A stretch of DNA of 64,000 bases from Haloplanus salinus (GTDB taxonomy: Archaea > Halobacteriota > Halobacteria > Halobacteriales > Haloferacaceae). The translations under genes and the position numbers were made by a program. Under the pieces are notes generated by a model. That model was not told the DNA's origin and ran no database searches. It was given only the letters and a program-made list of their open reading frames with translations. The stretch spans positions 2,794,113 through 2,858,112 of the forward strand of contig NZ_QPHM01000001.1 of the NCBI RefSeq assembly GCF_003336245.1. The letters are read 5' to 3'. Of the stretch, positions 51,129-54,687 are shown in pieces. Position 1 is the first letter of the stretch. Each line of letters starts with the position of its first letter.

Positions 51129-51241
51129 CGGAGTTCGTTTCCGTCCGGCGGGAACGACCCTCGGCGTCCGTTCGCTCCCCCGAGGTCGCCGGTGATGCCG
51201 ACGACCGTGGCGCCGGCGTCACCACGGCCGAATCGGGCGAC

Positions 51242-51895: not shown

Positions 51896-52314
51896 GGTGG
51901 GCCCGACAGCGTGGTGTTCGTGATCGCGCTCACGTTGGATTCGGCGCCGACGCCCCGTTAACCGTGTCCCCGTTCCCGGACGATAGGAACGGGGCCGCAC
52001 TCCGTTACGCGTCATTCGTATTGAGTATCCAATAAAATTTGCGTCCGTCGCCGTCGGACGCGGTATCCTCCCTCACTTTGGGCCACCTCGAACTGCTCCG
52101 TCCCTGCACAGTCGACTTCTGGGTGGGTCTCGCCACCGAGGGCAACGTCTCCCTCCGCCGGTGGGTCTACACGGCCGCCCGGGTCGAGGGCCTCTTTCTC
52201 GTGCCACGGGTGGTGCGCCGGTCGCGCTCCGGGACGCCGGCGAGACGCGTCCCGGCGACGACGGCCCCTGTACGAAGCCGGTTTCGGGAGGTCGTCGAAG
52301 CCGATGGCAGCGGT
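51896..52314. other. Unassigned region next to the dehydrogenase scar
   Basis: 419 bp between trkA and the E1/E2 pseudogene. It holds an A/T-rich stretch (52016-52040) that can serve trkA. The plus strand has an unbroken frame from 52039 containing CTVDFWVGLATEGNVSLRRW, not recognised and starting at TTG. No E3 (dihydrolipoamide dehydrogenase) remnant could be recognised. Confidence 0.4.
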
Positions 52315-53441
52315 CTACTCCGCGGCGTACCTCCCGGCGTCCTCGACCCGTTCGGCGAGCGTGCCGAGGAAGCGGGCGGCGTCGGCACCGTCGACGACTC
52401 GGTGGTCGAAGCTCAGATCGAGGGGAAGCGTCTCGCGGAACGCCACGCCGTCGTCGTCGGGTTGCGCCCGCTTCCGGACCCGGCTCACGCCGAGGATGGC
52501 GACTTCCGGCGGGTTGATGATCGGCGTGAACCCGTCGTCGACGCGGGCGTGAGCGTCCTCGCGCATCTCCGCCATCGCGTCGTCGTCGACGCCGTGGTCG
52601 CGGAGGTGGCCCTCCATGCGCTCGATGGAGTCGCGATCCATCGTGGCTGCCTGATCCTCGTCGGAGCGGTAGCTCTGCGGGTCGCCCACGAGATGCCCCA
52701 TCCGGCGGTGGACCTGGATCGAGAGGACGGTAGGGCCGTTGCCGTCGCGAGCGCGGCCGACCGCCTCGGCGGCCGCCTCGTAGACGGCGACGGCGTCGTC
52801 GCGGCCGACGTGGACCCCCGGCATGTCGAAGCCGTCGGCGCGGTTCGAGGCGAACTCCACGTCCGTCACGCGCTCTTGGGGCGTGCTGATCGCCCAGTCG
52901 TTGTCTTCGACGACGAACACGACGGGCAGGTCGTGGACGGCGGCGAGGTTCAGGGATTCGAGAAACCCACCCTGATCGACGGCGCCCTCGCCGAGATAGG
53001 CGACGGCGACGCTGTCGGTGTTGCGCTTTTTGGCCGCGAGGCCGGACCGGCCGCGGGCGGACACCCCTGTGCGATGATGCCGCTACACGCGAAGTTCACG
53101 CCGGAGTCGAAGAGGTGCATGTGACCACTCTTCCCCCGTCCGAGTCCCGTCTCGCGACCGAAGATTTCGGCCGTCATCCGGTCTAGGTCGACGCCCTTCG
53201 CGATGGCGACGTGGTGGGGGCAGTGGGGCGCCGTTACCACGTCGTCGCGCAGGTGGTGACAGACACCGACGGCGGCCGCCTCCTGGCCCGCGGCGAGGTG
53301 GAGTTCGCCGGGAATCGGCCCGGCGGAAACGTCGAACTTCGGCTGCTCGCCCTCCAGATACTCCTCCTGCAACCGCTCTTCGTAGTACCGCGCCGTCACC
53401 ATGTCGGCGTACATCTTCCGAAGTCGCCGTTCGAATGTCAT
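52315..53441 (-). pseudogene. Frameshifted fusion of E1-alpha (2-oxoacid/acetoin dehydrogenase) with E2 C-terminus
   Basis: From the ATG at 53441, ~132 codons read as ThDP-dependent E1-alpha (MYADMVTARYYEERL, GRGKSGHMHLFD, NFACSGIIAQG). One base is missing at 53044-53045, and E1-alpha continues in the next frame (AAKKRNTDSVAVAYLGEGAV, VVEDNDWAISTPQERV) to about 52531. The remaining ~71 codons are the end of an E2 acyltransferase: FTPIINPPEVAILG and the active-site LSFDHRVVDGADAA. The end of E1-alpha, all of E1-beta and most of E2 are therefore deleted. A dead gene, or a sequencing slip plus a real fusion. Confidence 0.88.
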
Positions 53442-53513
53442 GCTGCCTAAATATCGGGACTAACACATACAATTGTGTAGGTTGGGTGAAACGGTACGGC
53501 GGGGCGACCGGGT

Positions 53514-53909
53514 TCAGGACTGGATGCCGGCGAGGTGGGTACCACCGTCGACGGAGTCCCGCCGGGTGACGGTGAGTTCGAAGCCGGCATCGGCGTCCGC
53601 GTCGACGAGAATCTCGTCGACCGCGCGCATGTACTCCTTCGCGTGCTTGCCGTCGGGACAGAGCCGGGTCCGCTCGGCGAGCAGTCCAGTCTCGGTGAGC
53701 GTGTCGAGTTTGCGATACGTCGTCGACAGCGGGAGGTCGCAGGCGTCGGCGAGCTCGCTCGCCGACAGCGACGCTTCACCCGTCGCATCGAGGACGGCAC
53801 GGCAGTCGCCGTCGTGGAGCGCGTGCAACATCGTCTGGACCTCGTCGGCGTCGGCGACGGTCGTTTCGTCGGGCGAGCGTTCGACGCGGGGTGGAGTGGC
53901 GATGGCCAT
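53514..53909 (-). CDS. ArsR-like winged-helix regulator
   Basis: 131 aa from MAIATPPRVE. Residues 30-95 form a wHTH (DGDCRAVLDATGEASLSASE, CDLPLSTTYRKLDTLTETGL). The rest, with FELTVTRRD, is a small beta unit. Divergent from the Bat-type gene at 54034 with a ~124-nt shared gap, so cross-regulation is possible. An ATG at 53954 would add 15 residues. Confidence 0.82.
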   Translation of the reverse strand: MAIATPPRVERSPDETTVADADEVQTMLHALHDGDCRAVLDATGEASLSASELADACDLPLSTTYRKLDTLTETGLLAERTRLCPDGKHAKEYMRAVDEILVDADADAGFELTVTRRDSVDGGTHLAGIQS

Positions 53910-54033
53910 CGTCGGTCGCTCGGACGAACGGGGGCGACCACAACCAGTCTGCACCCACGATACTGAGGGAGGTTTATCGGTAGATCACGTTGCGGAAGGT
54001 ACACTTAGGAACGCCGGCCGCGTGGACCGTAGC

Positions 54034-54687
54034 ATGAGTTCGGGGATTCGGGCTGAACTTCGAGTCGACGTGGATGGGCGCTGTCCCGTCGTCGAGGCGG
54101 CGGCGGCGGCCGGTTCGCCGACGTCTTCCATCGCCAGAGCCGTCGATCCGTCGGGGACGGGGCGGGTGACCGCGGAGTTCATGCTCGACGACACAGCGGG
54201 CGCGGAGTTGGCCGACGACGAGCACGTGGACGCAGTGTTCACGTACGGAACGAAGACAGTCTATCGACTCACCCACGGCCGCGACGGAGGCTGTCCCTGC
54301 GAGCGCATCGAACGGTTCGACTGTCCCGTCGTCGACGCTCACGTCCGCGATGGACTGCTGTATCTGGTCTTTCATGCGGCGGATATGGAACAGCTACAGG
54401 ACATCATCGGGACGCTCCGGGCGGAGTACCCACGGGTCGACATCCGTCGCCTCCTCCGGTCGGAAGGCGAGGACGAGGACAACGACCTCGTCCTCGTCGA
54501 CCGAGGCCGCCTCACCGCCCGGCAGCGAGAGGTGCTCGAAACCGCGCACCGGATGGGGTACTTCGAACGCCCGAAGGGAGCGAACGCGGGGGACGTCGCC
54601 GACGCCCTCGACATCTCGCGGTCGACGTTCGCGGAGCATCTGTCGGCCGCGCAGACGAAACTGTTCGACGCGATTCTGGAGGACTGA
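54034..54687 (+). CDS. Bat-type HTH transcriptional regulator
   Basis: 217 aa. C-terminal ~55 residues are the bacterio-opsin-activator HTH (LTARQREVLETAHRMGYFE, DVADALDISRSTFAEHL). The N-terminal ~150 residues are a sensor-like domain with CPCERIERFDCPVVDAH; C91 and C93 could bind a ligand. The frame is open far upstream, but the ATG at 54034 fits the TATA-like ACACTTAGG at 54001-54009. Confidence 0.87.
   Translation: MSSGIRAELRVDVDGRCPVVEAAAAAGSPTSSIARAVDPSGTGRVTAEFMLDDTAGAELADDEHVDAVFTYGTKTVYRLTHGRDGGCPCERIERFDCPVVDAHVRDGLLYLVFHAADMEQLQDIIGTLRAEYPRVDIRRLLRSEGEDEDNDLVLVDRGRLTARQREVLETAHRMGYFERPKGANAGDVADALDISRSTFAEHLSAAQTKLFDAILED

Follow-up and report, generated by a model that had tools for sequence, protein, structure and literature searches.

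Anatomy of the Locus

The window, a 64-kb stretch of Haloplanus salinus DNA, belongs to a haloarchaeal-type genome of 3.55 Mb that is assembled in 4 contigs and is 99.93% complete. Its minus strand carries pieces of two genes of the 2-oxoacid dehydrogenase family (Table 1). Two open reading frames (ORFs) match adjacent parts of the E1_dh profile (Pfam PF00676), the ORF at 52950-53441 covering profile positions 18-115 and the ORF at 52315-53064 positions 114-288, and they therefore represent one E1-alpha gene read in two frames. Alignment with three congeners reveals, in addition to the single-base loss between the frames, an in-frame loss of 3 bp at E1-alpha codons 65-66. The second ORF (249 aa) is uninterrupted by stops and retains the TPP-binding stretch. 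It continues into the end of an E2 acyltransferase gene, from about codon 166 to the stop at 52315 (its last 83 codons), including the DHRVVDG motif. Positions 162-227 of the 232 in the 2-oxoacid_dh (E2) profile are matched by this ORF and are all that remains of the E2 domain. The E2 relic is 94% identical to the end of the E2 of the congener G007.

Table 1. Features of the relic and its upstream region (window coordinates).
Feature	Position	Strand	Evidence
E1-alpha relic (2-oxoacid dehydrogenase E1 component alpha), codons 1-303 of 349, in two frames	52538..53441 (end approximate)	-	PF00676 in both ORFs; alignment to G007, G001 and G003 orthologues
Frameshift, one base lost relative to all three congeners	53045..53046	-	Alignment
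Deletion junction, marked by a single copy of the 5-bp word CGACG that both parents have at their break sites	52533..52537	-	Alignment
E2 acyltransferase C-terminus relic with DHRVVDG, continuing the frame of the E1-alpha part	52315..52532	-	PF00198, E=1.8e-21
Operator-like inverted repeat CACA-N6-TGTG (CACAATTGTATGTG) upstream of E1-alpha	53464..53477	-	Alignment; similar in intact congeners
HTH regulator, intact	53514..53954	-	Pfam HTH_20 / HTH_IclR; same neighbour in G007, G001 and G003

A prior sequence-only reading had described E1-alpha motifs in two frames followed by an E2 tail with DHRVVDG, a description borne out by the Pfam matches and the congener alignment. The base loss that it placed at 53044-53045 is real and lies one position away, between 53046 and 53045. 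The switch from E1-alpha to E2, estimated at about 52530, falls at 52537-52533 when both parents are compared. The break in E1-alpha had been put in the middle of the gene and is actually late.

The inverted repeat upstream of E1-alpha is the single match to CACA-N6-TGTG in the window, with none in shuffled sequences. From its position, the adjacent HTH gene is possibly an orphan regulator of a lost operon. Other genes have also disappeared next to the relic. G001 and G004 both have a sodium/calcium exchanger gene that is lost here (window 52230-52311), leaving at most a weak vestige. The cydAB genes, present in the same two genomes, are lost as well (window 51181-51241), and a 29-bp vestige of the small gene downstream of them is left. 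Another cydA is retained in the genome at C1:1444141.

Intact Parent Operons in Congeners

In a DNA search of 12 genomes of the genus, G007, G001, and G003 each gave one match to the E1-alpha part and another, collinear but apart from it, to the E2 part, with G007 showing 91% and 77% DNA identity to the respective parts of the relic. In the operon of these three genomes, E1-alpha and E1-beta are followed by a lipoyl-domain gene of its own (~85 codons) and then by an E2 catalytic domain (~245 codons), and the genes overlap head to tail. E2 is split in this intact operon (L027:6248-7230, L028:6232-7205), so that a stand-alone lipoyl-domain gene accompanies an acyltransferase devoid of a lipoyl domain. 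The relic and the intact operons occupy a syntenic site, with a ZIP transporter, HTH regulators, and hpt as common flanks. Comparison with related genomes, which the sequence-only reading had proposed, thus provides a syntenic intact parent in three congeners, and its central claim of a deletion joining E1-alpha to the end of E2, together with a frameshift, proves essentially right. Across the 12 genomes the operon is intact in three, a relic in two, and without a close match at this level in seven. A paralogous cluster with a different arrangement is found in G005.

Synteny also bears on the idea that the two pieces arrived already united in a chimeric fragment, inserted or horizontally transferred, and were not joined by deletion in place. 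No support for such an event was found, both sides of the relic are syntenic with G007, G001, and G003, and the E1-alpha and E2 pieces are both closest to one and the same congener, G007. Given this two-sided synteny, acquisition of a chimera by horizontal transfer was rejected, and an origin of this kind is scarcely credible.

Outside the genus, almost all of ~60 haloarchaeal loci preserve the order E1-alpha, E1-beta, lipoyl. E2 follows immediately in some of them, and none has an E1-alpha/E2 fusion. One locus (L100) ends at a contig edge and was excluded from the judgement of operon order. Many other haloarchaea have E1-alpha, E1-beta, and the lipoyl gene with no recognisable E2 adjacent. 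In Haloparvum sedimenti and Halobacterium bonnevillei, E1-beta appears to lie in two frames (L045:7073-8079, L081:4809-5794). The operon may be decaying in these two species too, or the breaks may be sequencing errors.

The Deletion Junction

Relative to G007, exactly 1866 bp (622 codons) are missing from the relic, and the syntenic intact operons account for this as a single loss, in agreement with the one deletion of "roughly 2 kb" proposed from the sequence. At the break sites G007 E1-alpha reads ...GTCGACGACGCCATC and G007 E2 reads ...GGCGTCGACGGGTTC, while the relic reads ...GTCGACGACGGGTTC. The short direct repeat that was to be looked for at the junction is therefore present as CGACG, and a short identical word at both break sites with one copy kept is the signature of a microhomology deletion. 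Random breakpoints in E1-alpha and E2 would overlap by at least 5 bp with a chance of 0.013 (1.3%), and taken alone the CGACG overlap is only suggestive of microhomology-mediated deletion. End joining at short repeats has been described in Haloferax volcanii (PMC7776575, PMC7521656), making such a mechanism plausible here. Since the deleted length is divisible by three, neither order of frameshift and deletion leaves a trace.

Decay of the Relic

Rates of change were compared over the sites on which G001 and G003, the outgroups, agree. In E1-alpha, 15 amino-acid changes are specific to the relic lineage and 0 to G007, and those of the relic include replacements of conserved residues (R75C and G106S). 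By codon position (1/2/3), E1-alpha changes number 13, 6, and 16 in the relic and 0, 0, and 7 in G007. The flanking genes, used as a control, show 37 amino-acid changes in the relic lineage and 25 in that of G007 (Fisher p=0.0045 when the E2 tail is counted with the relic), and most of the surplus is therefore confined to the relic. One of the control genes, an HTH gene on the plus strand that ends at 54687, has likewise changed quickly in the relic lineage (20 vs. 6), which somewhat weakens the contrast between relic and flanks.

This decay is difficult to reconcile with an assembly or base-calling artefact, in which the operon would really be intact and at least one of the frameshift and the deletion would be a sequencing error. 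The frameshift does involve a single base among consecutive C and G residues, where errors typically occur. A clean loss of 1866 bp at a 5-bp word, however, would be unusual as an error, the deleted piece is on none of the four contigs of this nearly complete genome, and the surplus of amino-acid replacements, together with the additional loss of 3 bp, marks real decay. An artefact is accordingly very improbable.

Fate of the Deleted Genes and Uniqueness of the Fused Frame

A search of the genome for the deleted DNA gave no full-length match, only short matches to paralogues. The sole E1-beta is a 44%-identical paralogue in an intact pyruvate-dehydrogenase-type operon (C1:1574148-1577627), which presumably covers the pyruvate dehydrogenase need of the cell. 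There are two Biotin_lipoyl matches in the genome, neither of them at the relic locus. Translocation of the missing genes was considered and rejected, as no match exceeds the paralogue level. A functional 2-oxoacid dehydrogenase complex needs a continuous TPP-binding E1-alpha, an E1-beta, a lipoyl domain, and a complete E2 acyltransferase domain. At this locus E1-alpha is in two frames and truncated, and the other three are missing or incomplete. A catalytic complex cannot assemble in the absence of E1-beta and the lipoyl domain.

The in-frame deletion and the stop-free second ORF speak against a dead remnant and make a translated one conceivable. Stops are rare in DNA this rich in G+C, and by chance a third of all deletions preserve the frame. 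An in-frame junction and 249 codons spanning both the TPP-binding stretch and DHRVVDG would also be consistent with a real E1-alpha/E2 fusion enzyme, or with a fusion protein of 249 aa in a new role, starting at the GTG at 53064. Such a protein would nevertheless be cut off from the start and promoter of the gene by the frameshift, it would have neither E1-beta nor the lipoyl domain and only a third of the E2 fold, and its sequence evolves with an excess of replacements. Among the matches listed from 170 genomes of the family, no other genome has the fused architecture, and the other matches to the 249-aa ORF span either the E1-alpha part or the E2 part. A conserved fusion enzyme was rejected on this ground, and fusion proteins in general are even less probable here than an artefact. 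Two outcomes that the sequence-only reading had named as fatal to its proposal did not materialize: its downstream 71 residues match only the E2 family, not E1-alpha alone, and the same fusion free of the frameshift does not recur among the listed matches from the family.

An Independent Relic in the Genus

At the same site in G004 (L030:7213-7560), the start of E1-alpha is joined to mid-E2 at an 11-bp repeat, CTACGAGGAGC, which is present in both genes of G007. Beyond the junction, the E2 part of this relic has undergone a further internal deletion, and the reading frame changes. The chance of an overlap of at least 10 bp at random breakpoints is 0.00014. The break points differ from those of the Haloplanus salinus relic, which indicates an independent deletion. 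It is conceivable, though rather unlikely, that this operon acts as a hotspot for deletions in the genus, E1-alpha having been joined to E2 via short repeats independently in no fewer than two lineages (G000 and G004). Such repeats would recur in G+C-rich coding sequences, and loss of the operon would then tend to leave E1-alpha/E2 chimeras.

Origin of the Relic and Comparison with Known Systems

The locus is very probably a pseudogene, the remnant of a second 2-oxoacid dehydrogenase operon killed by deletion, with a deletion scar and a frameshift. It combines an intact syntenic parent in close relatives with a disrupted frame and relaxed constraint, as is characteristic of deletion pseudogenes. 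The parent operon would have comprised E1-alpha, E1-beta, a stand-alone lipoyl domain, and the E2 catalytic domain. One deletion of ~1.87 kb took the end of E1-alpha, E1-beta and the lipoyl gene in their entirety, and E2 up to two thirds of its length, most likely via end joining or replication slippage at the short common sequence. A separate loss of one base broke the E1-alpha frame, and the remnant is now drifting, probably devoid of residual function.

This is otherwise an ordinary and well-documented kind of gene decay, of mild interest for its parallel deletions. Loss of a haloarchaeal operon can be traced here to the exact base, within a genus whose members have the operon intact, as a relic, or apparently not at all, and the case warns annotators that the 249-aa ORF is not to be called a fusion enzyme.

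Three gene clusters for 2-oxoacid dehydrogenase complexes are known in Haloferax volcanii (PMC3235422). The E1-alpha and E2 relics belong to the same family as these haloarchaeal operons, whereas the locus described here consists of two incomplete, frame-broken pieces only. With respect to mechanism, the event is inferred from the junction alone, and its 5-bp word is short (11 bp in G004). It resembles deletion pseudogenes formed at short repeats, for which microhomology-mediated end joining is described in Haloferax volcanii (PMC7776575, PMC7521656), in that DNA was deleted between short identical words, of which one was retained.
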